This document shows, in pieces, positions 27,472 through 64,000 of a stretch of DNA of 64,000 bases; the first letter of the stretch is position 1, and the number at the start of each line of letters is the position of its first letter. Source of the DNA: Rehaibacterium terrae (GTDB lineage Bacteria > Pseudomonadota > Gammaproteobacteria > Xanthomonadales > Xanthomonadaceae). The stretch lies in NCBI RefSeq assembly GCF_014202935.1, contig NZ_JACHHX010000011.1:1-64000 (forward strand). Reading direction: 5' to 3'. Under the pieces are notes generated by a model, which was not told the DNA's origin, ran no database searches, and was given only the letters and a program-made list of their open reading frames with translations. The position numbers were made by a program, and so were the translations under genes.

Positions 27472-27498
27472 CGTCACGGCCGCGTGAAAGCCGTGACG
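27472..27498 (+). terminator. Hairpin after the OsmC gene
   Basis: The perfect 9-bp arms CGTCACGGC and GCCGTGACG with a 9-base loop start 14 nt after the OsmC stop. No T tract follows. Confidence 0.45.
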
Positions 27499-27547
27499 CC
27501 TCGCGGATTCACTGCCCCATCACCGCGCGCCCGGCAATGTCTGGCGC

Positions 27548-28516
27548 ATGGATGGATCGCACGACACCCGTTCCCTGACCTCCCCCCGGCCCGACCGCTG
27601 GCTGGCGCTGCGGCGCTGGTTCGACAGCGGCGATGCCACCGCGCCGGTGCCCGAGGGCAGCCCCGACCGCATCGACTGGCTGCGGGTGTTGCCGTTCATC
27701 GGCCTGCATGCGGCCTGCCTGGGCGTGCTGTGGGTCGGGTTCTCCTGGTTCGCACTGTCGGTGGCGCTCGCGCTGTACGCGCTGCGAATGTTCGCGATCA
27801 CCGCCTTCTACCATCGCTACTTCTCGCACAAGGCGTTCCGCACCTCGCGTCCGGTGCAGTTCGCGTTCGCCCTGCTGGGCGCTTCGGCGGTGCAGCGCGG
27901 GCCGCTGTGGTGGGCGGCACACCATCGGCACCATCATCGCCATTCGGACACTGCGCAAGACCTCCACTCGCCGGTGACACGCGGATTTTTCTGGAGTCAT
28001 GTCGGCTGGTTCCTCAGTGAGCGCGGCTTCCATACCGACCACCGGGCCATCCGTGACCTCGCCCGCTATCCCGAACTGCGCTGGCTCGACCGCTACGACA
28101 TCGTGGTGCCGGTCGCGCTGGCGGCAGGGCTGTACTTCCTCGGCAGCTGGCTCGAACGGGCCTATCCGGCGCTGCAGACCAACGGGCCTCAACTGCTCGT
28201 CTGGGGTTTCTTCGTTTCGACGGTGGCGCTGTTTCACGTCACCTTCACCATCAATTCGCTCGCCCACCGCTGGGGCAGCCGACGCTTCGCCACCCGCGAC
28301 AACAGCCGCAACAACTGGCTGCTGGCGCTGCTGACCTTCGGCGAGGGCTGGCACAACAACCATCACCACTATCCCGGCTCGGCACGACAGGGCTTCCGCT
28401 GGTGGGAGATCGACCTGACCTACTACGGCCTGCGCCTGCTGGCGCTGCTCGGCCTGGTGCGCGACCTCAGGCCCGTGCCCGCGGCGGTGCTCGGATCGCG
28501 TCGGGAGCGTGCATGA
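27548..28516 (+). CDS. Membrane acyl-CoA/fatty-acid desaturase
   Basis: A 322-aa di-iron membrane desaturase. The three histidine boxes are present: [16 protein letters not shown] and the C-terminal [13 protein letters not shown], the delta-9 stearoyl-CoA desaturase arrangement, with about four TM helices around them. It introduces a cis double bond into an acyl chain and so could supply the unsaturated substrate for the Cfa enzymes downstream. It is the first gene of a seven-gene run; its stop overlaps the next start (ATGA). Confidence 0.92.
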
Positions 28517-29757
28517 GGATCGCGGTGGTCGGCAGCGGCATCGCCGGGCTGGGCGCGGCCTGGCTGCTGTCGCGAAAACACGAGGTGGTGCTGTTCGAGC
28601 GCGAGGCGCGGCTTGGCGGGCATACCCACACCCACGCCGTCGAGCGCGGCGGGCACGTGTACCACGTGGACTCGGGCTTCATCGTGTTCAACCCGGTCAA
28701 CTACCCGCTGTTGTGCCGGTTGTTCGGCGAGCTGGAGGTGGGCTCGCAGCCGACCACGATGAGCTTCTCGGTGCAGGACGCGCGCAACGGGCTCGAATAC
28801 AACGCGAGCAGCCTCGACGGCCTGTTCTGCCAGCGCCGCAACCTGCTGCGACCGCGCTTCTGGCGGATGGTGCGCGAGATCCTGCGCTTCTACCGCGAGG
28901 CACCCACGCTGCTCGACCTGCCGGATGATGGCCCGACGATCGGCGACTACCTCGCCGCCAACGACTACTCGGCGATGTTCGCCGAGGACCATCTGATCCC
29001 GATGGCCAGCGCCCTGTGGTCCTCACCGACAGCGACGGTGATGAGGTTTCCCGCCAAGTACCTGGTGCAGTTCATGGCCAACCACCACATGCTCCAGGTC
29101 GAGGGACGGCCGCAGTGGCGGGTGGTACGCGGCGGCTCCAGCCGCTACGTGGAGGCGATGCGGTCACGCTGGGATGTGCAGGTCCGCACCGCCACCCCGG
29201 TATATGCCGTGCGCCGGCTCACCGATGCGGTGGAGGTGGACAGCGCCGCCGGCAGCGAGCGTTTCGACCAGATCGTGCTGGCCTGCCACAGCGACCAGGC
29301 CCTGCGCCTGCTGCGCGACGCCGACCAGCGCGAGCAGGACATCCTCGGCGCCATCCCCTACCAGGCCAACGACACCATCCTGCACACCGACGCCCGCCTG
29401 CTGCCGCGCCGGCGCAAGGCGTGGGCCGCATGGAACGCCTTCGTTCCGGCCACGCCCGAGGCGCAATGCACCGTCAGCTACTGCATGAACCTGCTGCAGT
29501 CGTTCGACTCGCCCGAACCGTTCGTGGTCACGCTGGGCCGGAGCGCGGATATCGACCCGGACAGGATCATCGCGCGAATGGTCTACCACCACCCGGTGCT
29601 CACCCATGCCAGCATCGCCGCGCAGGCACGTCGCGACGAGATCAACGGCCGCAACCGCACCTGGTACTGCGGCGCGTACTGGGGATTCGGCTTCCACGAG
29701 GACGGCCTGCGCAGCGCGGTGGACGTGGCTCGCGGGCTGGGGGCGGCATGGGACTGA
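28513..29757 (+). CDS. FAD-dependent amine-oxidase-like oxidoreductase
   Basis: A 414-aa flavoprotein: N-terminal dinucleotide-binding motif [15 protein letters not shown] (about 5-19), [14 protein letters not shown], and C-terminal [13 protein letters not shown], which matches the conserved end of this NAD/FAD-binding family. Such proteins are almost always encoded beside DUF1365 and Cfa genes and are thought to act on lipid acyl chains, perhaps as saturases or desaturases. The start ATG overlaps the desaturase stop by four bases, and its end overlaps DUF1365 by ten. Confidence 0.88.
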
Positions 29758-30524
29758 ACAGCGCCATCTACGAGGGCTGGGTCCGGCACCGCCGCTTCGC
29801 GCCGCGCGAGCATGCATTCGGCTACCGGATGTTCCAGCTCTATCTGGATCTGGCCGAGCTCGACCAGGTCTTTCGCGATCGCTGGCTGTGGTCGGCGGAC
29901 CGCCCCAACCTGGCCTGGTTCCGCCGCGCCGACTACCACGGTGATCCCAGCCGCCCGCTCGACGCCTGCGTGCGCGACACCGTGGCCGCCAGGACCGGCC
30001 GGCGCCCGGCCGGGCCGATCCGGTTGCTGACGCACCTGCGCTACTTCGGCCACTGCTTCAACCCGGTGAGCTTCTACTACGGCTTCGCCGCGGACGGAAA
30101 AACCCTGGACTGGGTGATGGCGGAGATCAACAACACCCCCTGGAACGAGCGCCACGCCTACGTGCTGCCGGCACGGGAAGCGAAGGCGCACGGCAAGGCG
30201 CTGGGCTGGCGTTTCGACAAGCGTTTCCACGTCTCGCCGTTCATGGCGATGGCGCGCGAGTACGACTGGCGCTTCACCGTGCCGGGCGACCAACTGCGCG
30301 TGCACATGACCGTCCGCGAGCGCGACTGTCGTGAGTTCGACGCCACCCTCGTGCTGGTGCGCCGTCCGCTCGACGGCCCGAACCTGGCGCGCTGTCTGGC
30401 GCGCTACCCGGCGATGACCCTGCGGGTGCTCGCCGGCATCTACTGGCAGGCCCTGCGCCTGAAGCTCAAGGGCGTGCCGGTGCACGACCACCCCGACACC
30501 GCCGCGAGGAACGCTACCCGATGA
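29748..30524 (+). CDS. DUF1365 protein
   Basis: A 258-aa protein of the DUF1365 family. Conserved features: IYEGWVRHRRFAPREHAFGY at the N-terminus, THLRYFGHCFNPVSFYYGF in the middle (about 93-111) and KRFHVSPFMAM near 160. The biochemical role is unproven; it co-occurs with the FAD protein and Cfa methyltransferase, including in the sigma-E/ChrR singlet-oxygen regulon of Rhodobacter. It overlaps the upstream gene by ten bases and the downstream Cfa by four, so expression should be tightly coupled. Confidence 0.9.
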   Translation: MGLNSAIYEGWVRHRRFAPREHAFGYRMFQLYLDLAELDQVFRDRWLWSADRPNLAWFRRADYHGDPSRPLDACVRDTVAARTGRRPAGPIRLLTHLRYFGHCFNPVSFYYGFAADGKTLDWVMAEINNTPWNERHAYVLPAREAKAHGKALGWRFDKRFHVSPFMAMAREYDWRFTVPGDQLRVHMTVRERDCREFDATLVLVRRPLDGPNLARCLARYPAMTLRVLAGIYWQALRLKLKGVPVHDHPDTAARNATR

Positions 30525-31804
30525 GTACCCCCGCCGATTCCCTGCCCCGCGACATCGACCGCGACAGCGCGCGTTACGGCAGCCTCGACCGTTTCCTGCG
30601 TGAGCGCCTGCTGGCCCGGCTCGCCGGATTGCGCGGTCGACTGACCGTACACGACGCGCTCGGCGAAACCGAGCTCGGCCGCGCCGACCCCGATACGACC
30701 GAGCCGCTGCAGGCCTGCGTGCGCGTATACACGCCGGACTTCTACCGGCAGGTTGCGCTCAACGGCAGCGTCGGTGCCGGCGAGGCCTACATGGACGGCC
30801 ATTGGGATTGCGACGACCTGGTTGCACTGGTGCGACTGCTGGTGCGCAACCGCGACCTGCTCGACGGCATGGAGACCGGCGGCGCGCGGCTCGGCGGGCT
30901 GGCCATGAAGCTGCTGCACGCGCTGCACCGCAACACCCGCGCCGGCAGCCGGCGCAACATCGCCGCCCATTACGACCTCGGCAACGAGTTGTTCCAGCTG
31001 TTCCTCGACGACAACCTGATGTACTCGTCGGCGATATTCGCCGAGCCGGACGAGCCGCTGGAATCGGCCTCGGTCCGCAAGCTCGACCGCATCTGCCGCA
31101 AGCTCGACCTCAAGCCCGCCGACCACGTGATCGAGATCGGCACCGGTTGGGGCGGCTTCGCGCTGCACGCGGCACGGCATTACGGCTGCCGCGTCACCAC
31201 CACGACGATCTCGAAGGAGCAGCACGCCCTGGCCAGCGAGCGCATCGCCGCCGCCGGCCTGTCCGACCGCGTCACGCTGCTGCTGGAGGACTACCGCGAC
31301 CTCACCGGCCGCTACGACAAGCTGGTGTCGATCGAAATGGTCGAAGCCATTGGTCACCAGTACCTCGACACCTACCTGCGCAAATGCGCCTCCCTGCTGA
31401 AGGACGATGGCCTGGCGCTGGTCCAGGCCATCACCATCGAGGACCACCGCTACGCGAAGGCATTGCGCGAGGTGGATTTCATCAAGCGCCATGTCTTCCC
31501 TGGCAGCTTCATTCCCTCGGTGAGCGCGATCCTGTCCTCGATGGCGCGCGTCACCGACCTGCGCCTGCTCAACATGGAGGACATCGGCCCCAGCTACGCG
31601 CTCACGCTGCGCCATTGGCGCGAGCGCTTCCTGGCTGCGCGCGAGCGGGTGCGTGCACTCGGCCATGACGCGCGCTTCATCAGACTGTGGGTGTTCTATC
31701 TGTGCTACTGCGAAGGCGGATTCCTGGAGCGCAGTATCGGCGATGCCCAACTGCTGTTCGCCAAGCCGGGCAATCGTCGCGCGCAGTTCGTTCCCGACGC
31801 ATGA
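30521..31804 (+). CDS. Cfa-family SAM methyltransferase 1 (altered active site)
   Basis: A 427-aa homologue of cyclopropane-fatty-acyl-phospholipid synthase. The N-terminal region has GEAYMDGHWDCDDL; the SAM site is IEIGTGWGGFALH (about 205-217), followed by LEDYRDLTGRYDKLVSIEMVEA. Compared with E. coli Cfa, the bicarbonate ligands Cys139 and His266 correspond to Ser170 (MYSSAIF) and Gln302 (LVQAIT), while the Glu and late Tyr are kept. This suggests methyl transfer to an unsaturated acyl chain with a different outcome from plain cyclopropanation. It is in the middle of the lipid operon with ATGA overlaps on both sides. Confidence 0.88.
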   Translation: MSTPADSLPRDIDRDSARYGSLDRFLRERLLARLAGLRGRLTVHDALGETELGRADPDTTEPLQACVRVYTPDFYRQVALNGSVGAGEAYMDGHWDCDDLVALVRLLVRNRDLLDGMETGGARLGGLAMKLLHALHRNTRAGSRRNIAAHYDLGNELFQLFLDDNLMYSSAIFAEPDEPLESASVRKLDRICRKLDLKPADHVIEIGTGWGGFALHAARHYGCRVTTTTISKEQHALASERIAAAGLSDRVTLLLEDYRDLTGRYDKLVSIEMVEAIGHQYLDTYLRKCASLLKDDGLALVQAITIEDHRYAKALREVDFIKRHVFPGSFIPSVSAILSSMARVTDLRLLNMEDIGPSYALTLRHWRERFLAARERVRALGHDARFIRLWVFYLCYCEGGFLERSIGDAQLLFAKPGNRRAQFVPDA

Positions 31805-32358
31805 CCCGCGCGCCCACCATGTTGTCCACGCTCGCCAACGCCATCGGTTTCCAGCTCGTCTGGTTCGCCGCCGTGATCGGCGCGGCGAACGGGCTGTCCT
31901 GGCTCGGGCCGCTGGCGGCGCTGGCGTTCGCTGCGGCCGTACTGACTTGGGGCGGACGCCGGCGCGAGGACTTGTCGCTGCTGGCCGTGGCGCTGCCGCT
32001 CGGCTTCGCGCTCGACACCCTGTGGGTACGTGCCGGCCTGGTCGTCTTCGCCGCGCCCTGGCCGGAAAGCGTGGCGCCGCCGTGGATCATGGCGATGTGG
32101 CTCGGCTTCGCGCTCACCCTCAATCACTCGCTGGCGCGACTGCGCGGCCTGCCCTGGCTGGCTGCCGCGCTGGGCGCAGCCGGCGCCCCCCTGGCCTACC
32201 TGGCCGCCGCACGTGGCTTCGGTGCGGTGCAATTCGTCGGCGACCCGCTGCCGGCGCTGCTGGCGGTGTCGCTGGCGTGGGCGCTGGTGGTGCCATTGCT
32301 GCTGCGGGTGGGCCGCATCCACAGGACGCGCATCGGCGCGAAGGTGGCCGGGCGATGA
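31801..32358 (+). CDS. DUF2878 membrane protein
   Basis: A 185-aa hydrophobic protein with five to six TM helices. DUF2878 is recognised from the pattern ANAIGFQLVWFAAVIGAANG, ALPLGFALDTLWVRAGLVVF and MWLGFALTLNHSLA. Function is unknown; the gene is a regular companion of DUF1365/Cfa operons. The ATG overlaps the Cfa stop (ATGA); a second ATG six codons later (31819) is possible. Its own stop overlaps the DUF1295 start. Confidence 0.8.
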   Translation: MTRAPTMLSTLANAIGFQLVWFAAVIGAANGLSWLGPLAALAFAAAVLTWGGRRREDLSLLAVALPLGFALDTLWVRAGLVVFAAPWPESVAPPWIMAMWLGFALTLNHSLARLRGLPWLAAALGAAGAPLAYLAAARGFGAVQFVGDPLPALLAVSLAWALVVPLLLRVGRIHRTRIGAKVAGR

Positions 32359-33137
32359 TCCTCACCGGGCTGCTCATCGTCTGGATCGCCTCGGCGCTGG
32401 TCATGGCGGCGGCGTGGTGGGTGTGCCGACGGATCGGCAACGCCGGCTACGTCGATGTGGTCTGGGCCGGCCTGATGGCGGCGGCAGCGCTGTTCGCCGG
32501 CGCCTTCGGCGACGGCGCGGCACTGCCGCGCGGGCTGGTCGCGATGATGGGCAGCCTGTGGGGAGCGCGGCTGTGCCTGCACCTGCTGCATCGCGTGCTG
32601 CACGAACCCGAGGACGGCCGTTACCGCTTCCTGCGTGAGCACTGGCAAGGCAACCAACGCTATTTCTTCGTGTTCTTCCAGGCGCAGGCCGTGTTCGTCG
32701 CGATCTTCGCGCTGCCGATGCTGGTGGCGGCCGGCAACCCCGAGCGCGACTTCACCGTGTGGACGGCGCTTGCGCTGGCGATCTGGGCGCTGGCCGTCGG
32801 CGGCGAGGCACTGGCCGACCGCCAGCTCGCGCGCTTTCGCGCCAACCCCGCCAATCGGGGCGAGGTCTGCCGCGATGGGCTGTGGGGCTGGTCGCGCCAC
32901 CCGAACTACTTCTTCGAATGGCTGCACTGGTTCGCCTACGTGTTGCTCGCCATCGGCGCGCCGCAGTGGTGGCTGAGCCTGGCCGGACCGCTGCTGATGC
33001 TGCTCTTCCTGTACCGCTTCACCGGCATTCCATGGACCGAGCAGCAGGCCCTGCGCAGCCGCGGCGAGGCCTACCGCCGCTACCAGCGCGAAGTCAGCCC
33101 CTTCATCCCCTGGCCGCCGCGCCGCCCGAGGAACTGA
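32355..33137 (+). CDS. DUF1295 (steroid 5-alpha-reductase-like) membrane protein
   Basis: A 260-aa protein with about six TM helices. The C-terminus carries the isoprenylcysteine-methyltransferase/5-alpha-reductase-like signature: GLWGWSRHPNYFFEWLHWF and YRRYQREVSPFIPW. Such enzymes reduce double bonds using NADPH or methylate in the membrane; the role of bacterial DUF1295 proteins in Cfa operons is not known but a lipid-reductase function is plausible. It overlaps DUF2878 by four bases (ATGA) and is followed after four bases by the second Cfa gene. Confidence 0.85.
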   Translation: MILTGLLIVWIASALVMAAAWWVCRRIGNAGYVDVVWAGLMAAAALFAGAFGDGAALPRGLVAMMGSLWGARLCLHLLHRVLHEPEDGRYRFLREHWQGNQRYFFVFFQAQAVFVAIFALPMLVAAGNPERDFTVWTALALAIWALAVGGEALADRQLARFRANPANRGEVCRDGLWGWSRHPNYFFEWLHWFAYVLLAIGAPQWWLSLAGPLLMLLFLYRFTGIPWTEQQALRSRGEAYRRYQREVSPFIPWPPRRPRN

Positions 33138-33141
33138 ACCG

Positions 33142-34170
33142 ATGTCGCCGATCGCCCTGGCCGAACGTGGCCTGATTCCCGACGCGCTGATCCGTCACGG
33201 CATCCGCCGCCTGTGCGCGCGACGCCTGCGCGAGGAGCACATCGACGACCCCGCCCGTGCCGATGCCCGCTTCCGCGCGCTGCTCGACACGTTGCGGCGC
33301 AGCCCGATCGCCATCGAGACGGAAGCCGCCAACGCCCAGCACTACGAGGTGCCGACACGATTGTTCGAACTGTGCCTGGGCAAGCGCCTCAAGTACAGCT
33401 GCGCCTACTATCCGCGCGGGGACGAGACCCTGGACCAGGCCGAGGAAGCCATGCTGGCGCTGTACGAAGAACGCGCCGGGCTGGCTGATGGCCAGCGCAT
33501 ACTCGAACTGGGTTGTGGCTGGGGTTCGCTCACGCTGTGGATGGCCGAGCGTTACCCGAATGCGCGCATCACCGGCGTTTCCAACTCACGCACGCAGCGC
33601 GAGCACATCCTGGCTCAAGCCCGCGCGCGCGGCCTGGGCAACGTCGAGATCATCACCTGCGACGTGAACCGGCTGGCGCTGGACACACGCTTCGACCGCG
33701 TCGTCTCGATCGAGATGTTCGAGCACATGCGCAACTACCGGCATCTGCTCGCCAACATCGCCGGCTGGCTGGAGGACGACGGCAGGCTGTTCGTGCACAT
33801 CTTCTGCCACCGCTTCCTGATGTACCCGTTCCAGACCGAGGGCGAGGACAACTGGATGGGGCGGTACTTCTTCACCGGCGGCCTGATGCCCGCGGCCGAC
33901 ACATTGCTGCATTTCCAGGAGCATCTGGCATTGGAGCAGCGCTGGCTGCTACCGGGCACGCACTACCAGAAAACCGCCAACCACTGGCTGGCGAACCAGG
34001 ACGCGAACCGCGGGGAGGTGCTGGCCGTGCTGCGCGCCGCCTGCGGCGAGCGCGAGGGCGCACTGTGGGCGCAACGCTGGCGGATGTTCTGGATGGCCTG
34101 CGCGGAACTGTTCGGCTGGGAGGGCGGCAGCCAGTGGCTGGTCGCCCACTACCGCTTCAGCAAGCGCTAG
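33142..34170 (+). CDS. Cfa-family SAM methyltransferase 2
   Basis: A 342-aa SAM methyltransferase: EAANAQHYEVPTRLFELCLG, YSCAYYPRG (keeps the Cys that Cfa-1 lacks), the SAM motif ILELGCGWGSLTLWMA (about 120-135), SIEMFEHMRNY and LFVHIFCH. It is about 85 residues shorter than Cfa-1 at the N-terminus and belongs to the branch that also includes coclaurine-N-methyltransferase-like proteins, so its acceptor may differ. It is the last gene of the operon and its end overlaps the convergent secreted-protein gene by 14 nt. Confidence 0.86.
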   Translation: MSPIALAERGLIPDALIRHGIRRLCARRLREEHIDDPARADARFRALLDTLRRSPIAIETEAANAQHYEVPTRLFELCLGKRLKYSCAYYPRGDETLDQAEEAMLALYEERAGLADGQRILELGCGWGSLTLWMAERYPNARITGVSNSRTQREHILAQARARGLGNVEIITCDVNRLALDTRFDRVVSIEMFEHMRNYRHLLANIAGWLEDDGRLFVHIFCHRFLMYPFQTEGEDNWMGRYFFTGGLMPAADTLLHFQEHLALEQRWLLPGTHYQKTANHWLANQDANRGEVLAVLRAACGEREGALWAQRWRMFWMACAELFGWEGGSQWLVAHYRFSKR

Positions 34171-62257: not shown

Positions 62258-63541
62258 TCACCCCTGATGCCGCAACGCCTCGATCGGGTCGAGCCGGGCG
62301 GCCTTGCGCGCCGGGTAGTAGCCGAAGAACAGGCCGGTGGCGACCGAGAAGCCGGTCGCCAGGGCGATCACGTTGAGGTTCAGCTCGACCGGAAGCGCGC
62401 CGAAGCGGCTGGTCAGCAGGGCGCCGGCGATGCCGATGGCGATGCCGATCACGCCGCCGCCGAGCGAGAGCATCATCGCCTCGGCCAGGAACTGCGCCTG
62501 CACCTGGCGCGGGCCGGCGCCGACCGCCATGCGCAGGCCGATCTCGCGGGTCCGCTCGGTCACCGAGACCAGCATGATGTTCATGATGCCGATGCCGCCG
62601 ACGATCAGCGAAATGGAGGCGACCGCGCCGAGCAGCAGCGACATCAGCCGGGTGGTCTGGGTGCGGGCGCTGACGATCTCGGTGAGGTTGCGCACGACGA
62701 AGTCGTCCTCGCCGCCGGGCGGGATGCGGTGGCGCTGGCGCAGCAGTTCGACGAGCTCGCGCTCGACGTGCGGCAGATCCTCGGCGCGGGCGGTGCTGAC
62801 CGAGATCTGCATCACTCGCCCGGGGCCGATGTTGAGGTTGCTCATCAGCCGGCGGCGCGCGGTTTCCAGCGGCACGACGATGACATCGTCCTGGTCGCCA
62901 CCCCAGCCGCTCTGCCCGCGTGGCGACAGCACGCCGGCGACGGTGAACGGCACGCGGCCGACGCGGATCGTGGCGCCGGTGGGATCGGCATCGCCGAACA
63001 GCCGCTCGCGTACGGTCTGCCCGAGCAGCACGCGCTTGGCGGCGGCGCCGTAGTCGCGTTCGTCGAAGTGTTCACCCAGCGCGACTTCCCAGCCGTTGAT
63101 CGGAAACCAGTCCGGCTGCACGCCGACCCACTGTGTGGACCAGTTCTGCTCGGCATTCACCACCTGGGTGCCGCCGCGCAGGCTGGCGGCGACGTACTGC
63201 ACCTCGGGGATGTCGGCGCGGATGGCGTCGGCATCGCCCTCGGTCAGCGACATGATGCTGCCGGCGCCGATGCGCACCGCGCCCTGTCGGCCGGAGCCGG
63301 GGAAGATCTCGATCCGGTTGGAGCCCAGCCGCGAGATGGTGCGGTCGAGCTCGGCCTGGGTGCCCTGCCCCACCGACACCATCACGATGACCGCGGCGAT
63401 GCCGATGATCACGCCCAGCGCGGTCAGGACGCTGCGCAGCCAGTTGCCGCGCAGGGCGAAGGCGGCCATGCCGAGGATGTCGAGCAGGGTCGCGCTGGCG
63501 ATGCCAGGCGCGGAGCGGGTGTGACCACCATCTGCGCTCAT
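62258..63541 (-). CDS. MacB-type ABC transporter permease (FtsX-like)
   Basis: A 427-aa permease of the MacB/FtsX family. An N-terminal TM helix (about 33-53) is followed by a large periplasmic MacB-PCD domain (about 55-290) and three C-terminal TM helices (around SLLLGAVASISLIVGGIGI, in part, and later). The end of the protein, KAARLDPIEALRHQ, is the family C-terminus. The start overlaps the ATPase stop (ATGA). With an ATPase and probably an adaptor beyond the window it would form a MacAB-like exporter; the substrate cannot be told. Confidence 0.92.
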   Translation of the reverse strand: MSADGGHTRSAPGIASATLLDILGMAAFALRGNWLRSVLTALGVIIGIAAVIVMVSVGQGTQAELDRTISRLGSNRIEIFPGSGRQGAVRIGAGSIMSLTEGDADAIRADIPEVQYVAASLRGGTQVVNAEQNWSTQWVGVQPDWFPINGWEVALGEHFDERDYGAAAKRVLLGQTVRERLFGDADPTGATIRVGRVPFTVAGVLSPRGQSGWGGDQDDVIVVPLETARRRLMSNLNIGPGRVMQISVSTARAEDLPHVERELVELLRQRHRIPPGGEDDFVVRNLTEIVSARTQTTRLMSLLLGAVASISLIVGGIGIMNIMLVSVTERTREIGLRMAVGAGPRQVQAQFLAEAMMLSLGGGVIGIAIGIAGALLTSRFGALPVELNLNVIALATGFSVATGLFFGYYPARKAARLDPIEALRHQG

Positions 63542-64000
63542 GCGGCCTCCCGGGTCGCTTCGTGCAGCTCGCCGTCGCGCATGTGGAACACGCGGTCGGC
63601 GTAAGCGGCGATGGGCGGCTCGTGGGTGATGACCACGATGGTGTGACCGGCCGCCTGCAGACGCTTGAACAGGGCCATGATCTCTTCGCTGGTCCGGGTG
63701 TCGAGCGCGCCGGTGGGCTCGTCGGCGAGGATGATCGGCGCGGCGTTGATCAGCGCGCGGGCGATGGCGACACGCTGCTGCTGGCCGCCGGACAGCTCGC
63801 TCGGCTTGTGCCGGGCACGCTCGGCCAGGCCGACCTCGGCCAGCGCGCGTTCGGCGCGCGGGCGGCGTTCGGCGCGCGGCACGCCGGCGTAGATCAGCGG
63901 CATCATCACGTTGTCCAGCGCGCTCATCCGTGCGAGCAGGTGGAAGCCCTGGAAGACGAAGCCGATCTTTTCCAGCCGCAGCCGCGCGCGCTGCTCGGCG
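63538..64000 (-). CDS. MacB-type ABC transporter ATP-binding protein (partial)
   Basis: The C-terminal part of an ATPase cut by the window end. Visible are the Q-loop [13 protein letters not shown], the signature [15 protein letters not shown], Walker [12 protein letters not shown] and the switch His in VVITHE. The Walker A motif and the start are beyond position 64000. An ATG at 63927 lies inside the domain and is not the true start. It overlaps the permease by four bases and supplies the energy for it. Confidence 0.9.

Follow-up and report, generated by a model that had tools for sequence, protein, structure and literature searches.

A putative dimethyl furan fatty acid operon in Rehaibacterium terrae and its candidate two-component regulator

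Known systems for furan fatty acid synthesis

Little is known of the control and distribution of furan fatty acids, membrane lipids that scavenge radicals (PMC12700039; Lemke 2014, by its title in PMC10940516). The subject of this report is a row of seven genes at positions 27548 to 34170 of a 64,000-nucleotide stretch of Rehaibacterium terrae DNA (positions 1 to 64,000 of contig NZ_JACHHX010000011.1, here contig C11); this whole stretch is called the window. An initial annotation had described the row as a lipid-modification operon akin to the gene set governed by σE and ChrR in the singlet-oxygen response, a likeness that held up on closer comparison.

The enzymes of the pathway are described in R. 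sphaeroides and R. palustris, where UfaM, UfaD, UfaO and FufM have been tested experimentally (Lemke et al. 2020, PMC7380195); their UniProt entries are given as Q3J4I7 (UfaM), Q3IYV7 (UfaD), Q3IYV8 (UfaO) and Q6NBA4 (FufM) in PMC10940516. According to Lemke et al., UfaM, UfaD and UfaO together turn a cis-monounsaturated chain into a methyl furan fatty acid (FuFA) with the help of O2, and R. palustris FufM then places a second methyl on the ring in a reaction dependent on S-adenosylmethionine (9M5-FuFA to 9D5-FuFA). Loss of ChrR raises the product in R. sphaeroides (PMC7380195). The window holds the same enzyme set, second methyltransferase included, and shares with Rhodopseudomonas the order flavin adenine dinucleotide (FAD) protein, DUF1365, Cfa. 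In the two described species the genes are at separate places, whereas in the window they form one operon together with a desaturase and DUF2878, with no adjacent ChrR or sigma factor of the extracytoplasmic function (ECF) group.

Similar in gene order is smlt2375-smlt2367 of Stenotrophomonas maltophilia (PMC11832516), a nine-gene cluster that runs, as here, from a desaturase through an FAD oxidoreductase, a hypothetical protein, a Cfa and two inner-membrane hypotheticals to another Cfa, a likeness of annotation and order between sequences that were not aligned. It differs in having two extra genes, for a periplasmic protein and a lipocalin, and in being controlled by σEc and ChrR: mutation of chrR raises its genes together, 165- to 697-fold, by way of σEc, and removing them almost reverted the mutant's menadione tolerance (PMC11832516). 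The main text of that paper contains none of the terms "furan", UfaM, FufM and DUF1365. A larger version of the operon has thus been published as a σEc/ChrR target, without a furan assignment, and what is new here is the regulation.

Two further systems share part of the set. The gammaproteobacterium Halomonas sp. YLGW01 carries a ufaM-ufaD-ufaO row, and no desaturase or FufM is reported in the accessible text (PMC12089945). In Pseudomonas mendocina an inducible operon includes an FAD oxidoreductase and ufaM, as in the window, but is controlled by a light-responsive regulator of the LitR type (class II) acting at TGTACA-like sites, and the accessible text names no desaturase (PMC9758184).

The operon and its probable furan fatty acid core

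All told, the evidence makes it likely that the seven genes form one operon that would put dimethyl furan fatty acids on membrane phospholipids, and that an OmpR-family two-component system controls it through a predicted upstream box. As initially annotated, seven plus-strand open reading frames of the named families are present, and each protein passes the cut-off of its own Pfam family. A fatty acid desaturase of the stearoyl-CoA type (27548..28516; PF00487; His boxes HRYFSH, HRHHH and HNNHH) comes first, followed by a UfaD-like FAD fatty-acyl desaturase (28513..29757; PF01593), a UfaO-like DUF1365 protein predicted to be the furan-forming oxygenase (29748..30524; PF07103) and Cfa-1, a UfaM-like fatty-acyl methyltransferase (30521..31804; PF02353). 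Two membrane proteins come next, DUF2878 (31801..32358; PF11086) and DUF1295, a predicted C=C reductase (32355..33137; PF06966 and Steroid_dh). The last gene encodes Cfa-2, a methyltransferase resembling FufM that would put the second methyl on the ring (33142..34170; PF02353).

The genes are tightly packed. Four junctions are four-base ATGA overlaps and the FAD and DUF1365 genes overlap by ten bases, as first described; DUF1295 and Cfa-2, which had been counted among the overlapping pairs, are in fact separated by a 4-base gap. Among 34 loci retrieved from relatives, with start codons picked by script, the four-base overlap was the commonest junction at each of the first five places.

The identity of the core rests on comparison with five named Rhodopseudomonas genomes, which were searched for the CMAS family. 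All five contain the FAD-DUF1365-CFA row, to which the window proteins are 40-43% (FAD), 35-37% (DUF1365) and 39-41% (Cfa-1) identical. In a tree of 42 proteins, built from the Cfa-1 and Cfa-2 of the window and of 14 of the 34 relatives' loci together with the Rhodopseudomonas types and a single lone CMAS gene out of three that scored highly, Cfa-1 clusters with Rhodopseudomonas UfaM at 100/100 support. The locus therefore brings together an amine-oxidase-type FAD protein, a DUF1365 protein and a UfaM-clade methyltransferase, the combination that marks the UfaM-UfaD-UfaO pathway. The three proteins are most likely homologues of UfaD, UfaO and UfaM, and not members of an unknown lipid path.

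A route can be drawn from the roles of these homologues. The head desaturase would make a cis-monounsaturated chain, which the UfaM-like Cfa-1 would methylate while moving its double bond; a methyl-diene would next be made by the UfaD-like FAD protein, and the UfaO-like DUF1365 protein would insert O2 and close the furan ring, each step by analogy with R. sphaeroides and R. palustris. The FufM-like Cfa-2 would finally add the second ring methyl, as R. palustris FufM does. The initial annotation had suggested that the set is a complete path, turning a saturated acyl chain into an unusual modified membrane lipid. That remains plausible and can now be refined, because the experiments on UfaM, UfaD, UfaO and FufM (PMC7380195) allow the product to be named as a methyl and then a dimethyl furan fatty acid.

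A direct-repeat box and a candidate two-component system

The expected regulators are missing near the operon, as had been stated, and this extends to the whole of contig C11. It contains no sigma-region-2 match (the genome has 16 listed, 15 of them over the cut-off), no ChrR-type cupin match (the genome has two) and no photolyase match (the single one in the genome is on contig C30). The adjacent pair of ECF sigma factor and ChrR-type anti-sigma factor that defines a σE-ChrR (ECF11) regulon is therefore not found at the window. Both genomic cupins were rejected as regulators of the operon. One is the C-terminal part of an ECF-cupin fusion on another contig, C1, beside CHRD-like genes; the other is a small, lone, sub-threshold cupin on C4, separated by other genes from an ECF gene. 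The C1 fusion is a single open reading frame (L001 580-1848; G000:C1 207685-208953) that joins sigma regions 2 and 4 to the ChrR-type cupin and adjoins a CHRD-like gene, with no zinc anti-sigma domain evident by eye.

Upstream of the operon there is instead a direct-repeat box, TTCACTGCCCCATCACCG (TTCAC-N7-TCACCG; 27508..27525, plus strand), with a period of 11 bp, which starts 40 bases before the desaturase ATG and is predicted to be a response regulator site. Direct repeats with an 11-bp period are the form taken by sites of the OmpR/PhoB family. A candidate -10 element, CAATGT (27535..27540, plus strand), was picked out by eye 11 bases after the second TCAC, and -10-like hexamers 10-11 bases past that point were seen in the same way in relatives, at the response regulator promoter described below and on Acinetobacter plasmids. 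Between the box and the upstream OsmC-like gene (named by eye) lies a perfect inverted repeat, GTCACGGC-N9-GCCGTGAC (27473-27497), with no T run.

The promoter before the desaturase was compared in the window and 29 relatives, 30 promoters in all. A type B box, TTCAC-N7-TCAC, stands at -39 or -40 in the window and in seven relatives of seven genera. Two further relatives have it at -71 and -88, and the ECF cluster includes none of these loci. A second group of 11 relatives has a type A promoter, TGCATCC-N-CGTA or one variant of it, at -56 to -59 in eight and at -76 to -108 in three. By clustering, an ECF sigma factor is encoded near seven of these 11 and an RskA-like anti-sigma factor near eight, with one of each confirmed by Pfam. 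An ECF gene with a ChrR-like gene was found by the same means near L036, L047 and L066, the cupin being Pfam-confirmed in L047. The TGCATCC-N-CGTA motif, the only ECF motif examined, is absent before the operon of the window.

Genes for the candidate regulator lie on the same contig beyond the end of the window, 31.7-33.8 kb downstream of the operon. The system consists of a histidine kinase (HK; contig 65911-67218, minus strand) with HisKA and HATPase domains and an OmpR-type response regulator (RR; contig 67265-67987, minus strand) with receiver and winged-helix domains, the domain make-up of the OmpR/PhoB family; neither reaches an NCBIfam equivalog cut-off. A box of the same kind as that of the operon precedes the RR gene (contig 68054-68037, minus strand). 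The link between box and regulator emerged from a pattern derived from operon promoters, which had 14 matches in nine genomes (one for the reversed pattern). Eight of these were at the operon, and one of the other six, in genome G039, was 64 bases before the genes for an OmpR-family RR and HK. RR promoters were then examined at 30 loci, three with a shortened upstream stretch and four at which no RR was found. The box is present before the RR gene in 11 of the 26 remaining loci, the own genome included; its frequency across the fetched loci predicts about 0.2.

Homologues of the G039 kinase occur in all 34 genomes searched. Identity to it is 58-65% in the own genome and in the seven relatives with a box at -39/-40; of the 11 type A genomes, eight show 35-48%, the exceptions being G046 (61%), G032 (62%) and G055 (partial). 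The kinase gene adjoins the operon in six of 34 loci, from four other families. Four of these six have the desaturase, and none of the four has either promoter element.

Directly behind the HK of the window's contig, on the same strand, are genes for an HlyD-type adaptor, an ATP-binding cassette ATPase and a MacB-type permease (62258-65765, of which 62258-64000 is in the window). In L114, L118 and L119, too, the gene after the HK encodes an adaptor homologue, and an efflux pump may be a further target of the two-component system.

The own genome has further matches to the box. Three (G000:C2:5683, C2:40931 and C13:47995) share the near-identical sequence TTCACCG(C/T)ACCCTCACCC with CTCTCCC close behind, lie beside unrelated genes and are probably copies of a dispersed intergenic repeat. 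A match on C9 was set aside because it does not precede a recognisably related gene. A regulator of the CarH/LitR type was considered because of the 11-bp period of the box and dropped once the box had been found before the OmpR-type RR gene; no LitR search of the genome was made.

Several observations speak against control of the operon by this system. Neither the box nor the ECF motif was found in nine of the 30 desaturase promoters. The box precedes the RR gene and not the operon in five relatives (G032, G046, G047, G048 and G056) and the operon and not the RR gene in three (G035, G049 and G057), the RR promoter of G004 being unreadable. G049, with its box at -88, has a kinase only 45% identical to that of G039, and the original operon-only pattern matched just one RR promoter (G039) among its 14 matches. 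With a pattern made slightly wider, nine genomes yielded 27 matches, seven at the operon and seven before the RR gene, with six for the reversed pattern. These nine genomes had been preselected, eight for the operon box and G032 for the RR box, and the widening, at the final base, came after the count of RR promoters, so this count restates the earlier ones and adds nothing.

The repeat might also be an unrecognised ECF promoter, or the site of some other regulator common to both promoters. Its fixed position at -39/-40 is like that of a core promoter element, and the genome has 15 sigma-region-2 matches over the cut-off, but the 11-bp direct repeat has the OmpR/PhoB form, and the box both precedes the RR gene itself and accompanies HK and RR genes on Acinetobacter plasmids, so that this explanation seems rather unlikely. 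The balance tips modestly toward a dedicated two-component regulator, unrelated to σE-ChrR and LitR, that would bind TTCAC-N7-TCAC, travel on plasmids with the operon and be swapped with ECF/anti-sigma pairs within one order. In this lineage the RR would most likely turn on transcription by binding the direct repeat at 27508-27525; in other lineages an ECF sigma factor with an RskA- or ChrR-type anti-sigma factor would do so instead. A literature search, weak on subscription papers, turned up no furan fatty acid genes under two-component control; NtrYX is reported to affect lipid secretion, with the furan level following chrR (PMC5442454).

The second methyltransferase

Assignment of Cfa-2 to the FufM type depends on a second Rhodopseudomonas locus. 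All five genomes contain, apart from the FAD-DUF1365-CFA row, a DUF1295-CFA pair to which the window's DUF1295 is 39-43% and Cfa-2 46-48% identical, the Cfa-2 alignments spanning 334-339 residues. In the 42-protein tree Cfa-2 falls in a clade with this DUF1295-linked methyltransferase at 100/100 support, apart from UfaM and Cfa. The published neighbouring deletion targets RPA0923 and RPA0924 (fufM) fit this pair, and so does the 26% identity of FufM to R. sphaeroides UfaM (PMC7380195), the DUF1295-linked protein being 27% identical to the UfaM of its own genome. Correspondence of the lone Rhodopseudomonas CMAS gene to the other candidate of that paper, RPA3082, is looser, since the lone gene is 31% identical to R. 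palustris UfaM and RPA3082 38% identical to R. sphaeroides UfaM. Cfa-2 is most likely of the FufM type and the predicted maker of the dimethyl form.

Some limits attach to this assignment. The Rhodopseudomonas gene was equated with FufM by its adjacency to DUF1295 and by similarity, in genomes that do not include strain CGA009. The tree program warned of long branches meeting. Within the tree the lone CMAS gene is placed with little certainty, and support falls to 72/60 for a Cfa-2 group that leaves out the FufM type. FufM alone is enough in R. sphaeroides (PMC7380195), so DUF1295 may not be needed.

The operon could instead end at a mono-methyl furan of the 9M5 type, with Cfa-2 acting on another substrate such as an amine. 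Among solved structures Cfa-2 is closest to coclaurine-type N-methyltransferases (E 4e-76, against 4e-26 for Cfa), and its identity to the FufM type is just 46-48%. Nearness to such enzymes, though, also fits FufM, whose Arabidopsis homologue LIME1 is 37.9% identical to it (PMC10940516). Since Cfa-2 shares a locus with the ufaD, ufaO and ufaM homologues in 31 of the 34 relatives' loci and the DUF1295-FufM pairing is common to Rhodopseudomonas, a mono-methyl end product is improbable. That both Cfa proteins are true cyclopropane synthases, and the operon a source of cyclopropane or simple methyl-branched lipids, is very improbable: both match PF02353, the Stenotrophomonas authors annotate both as cyclopropane fatty acid (CFA) synthases (PMC11832516) and overexpressed Halomonas ufaM gave the predicted methyl-branched intermediate in E. 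coli alongside cyclopropanes (PMC12089945), but neither reaches an NCBIfam cyclopropane synthase cut-off (at best 279 bits for Cfa-1 against 600, and 150 bits for Cfa-2 against 400), the two fall in the UfaM and FufM-type clades, and their DUF1365 and FAD partners have demonstrated furan roles in homologues.

Desaturase and membrane proteins

Three proteins of the row remain. The own genome has three FA_desaturase matches, of which the head desaturase is one; it resembles the solved structure of acyl-CoA desaturase 1 (4ymk, E 5e-28) and is predicted to supply the cis double bond that UfaM requires. DUF1295 yields a confident structure model (mean predicted local distance difference test score, pLDDT, 95) that comes closest in fold to delta14-sterol reductase and steroid 5-alpha-reductase (E 2.1e-3 at best, probability 1.0, template modelling score about 0.5); no fold match reached E 0.001 and no sequence match was found among solved structures. 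The model suggests that it is probably a membrane C=C reductase. DUF2878, also confidently modelled (pLDDT 95) and helical, gave no fold match at E <= 0.001 and may be an accessory membrane protein.

Distribution among relatives and on plasmids

DUF1365 is present in 34 of the 59 relatives searched, the own genome not counted, and all 34 loci were retrieved. All seven genes occur in window order in 18 of them and a desaturase heads 29, which puts the arrangement beyond chance. Among the departures, the desaturase is absent from five loci, DUF1295 is missing from the row in six, DUF2878 alone went undetected in three, and Cfa-2 was unseen in two, one of them at a contig end. The suggestion that the desaturase had replaced the regulators did not survive this comparison, for it heads those 29 loci with or without an ECF pair and co-occurs with σEc-ChrR in Stenotrophomonas (PMC11832516).

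The wider phylum has a different pattern. DUF1365 was found in 94 of 299 genomes drawn from it, 89 of them outside the order of the window, and 60 of these 89 loci were fetched, mostly the better-scoring ones (among the 29 left out were the two weakest). FAD precedes DUF1365 in all 60 and DUF1365 precedes Cfa-1 in 53, but Cfa-2 is present in only five and a desaturase before FAD, at a gap of about 1.2 kb, in only two. No HK or RR homologue scored above 150 bits in these 60 loci. Judged from them, an operon that starts with the desaturase and includes FufM is characteristic, in the samples, of the order to which the window belongs, plasmids excepted; the likeness to the Stenotrophomonas cluster points to Xanthomonadales/Lysobacterales as that order. 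The two loci with a close upstream desaturase, L304 and L312 of genus g70, have it at 58% identity, with room for about one gene before FAD.

FufM-type genes occur in 44 plasmid records, seven of them from Acinetobacter. Six records were fetched, one of which (L328) is without annotation, and four Acinetobacter plasmids were read. All four, among them pYH12207-1 (NZ_CP048660.1), carry the row lipocalin-desaturase-FAD-DUF1365-Cfa-DUF1295-FufM, then an HK and an RR encoded on the opposite strand. The row is that of the window, with the same kind of box, but begins with the lipocalin, has no annotated DUF2878 and lies near chalcone-isomerase-like and NTF2-like genes, with a photolyase in three of the four. 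The box, TTCAC-N7-TTCAC, stands at -61 before the lipocalin gene and at -63 or -65 before the NTF2-like gene in all four. The plasmid HK is 27-28% and the RR 47-53% identical to the pair of the own genome, the RR match being partial in one case. On a conjugative plasmid of Burkholderia anthina the genes are paired with an ECF sigma factor and an anti-sigma factor, so the same pathway occurs with either kind of regulator. The four Acinetobacter plasmids (L326, L329, L330 and L331) are typed as mobilizable and that of B. anthina (L327) as conjugative, and transposase genes lie in the fetched stretches.

Implications

If the proposed pathway is right, many genera of one order, probably non-phototrophic, make the dimethyl form of furan fatty acids from a single operon, and the "CFA" cluster of Stenotrophomonas gains a product. 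The operon would also be a compact cassette for dimethyl furan lipids in laboratory strains. Should the dedicated two-component regulator prove real, its sensor would be a direct handle on the signal that calls for furan lipids, and the same dimethyl-furan pathway would answer different membrane signals in sister genera.

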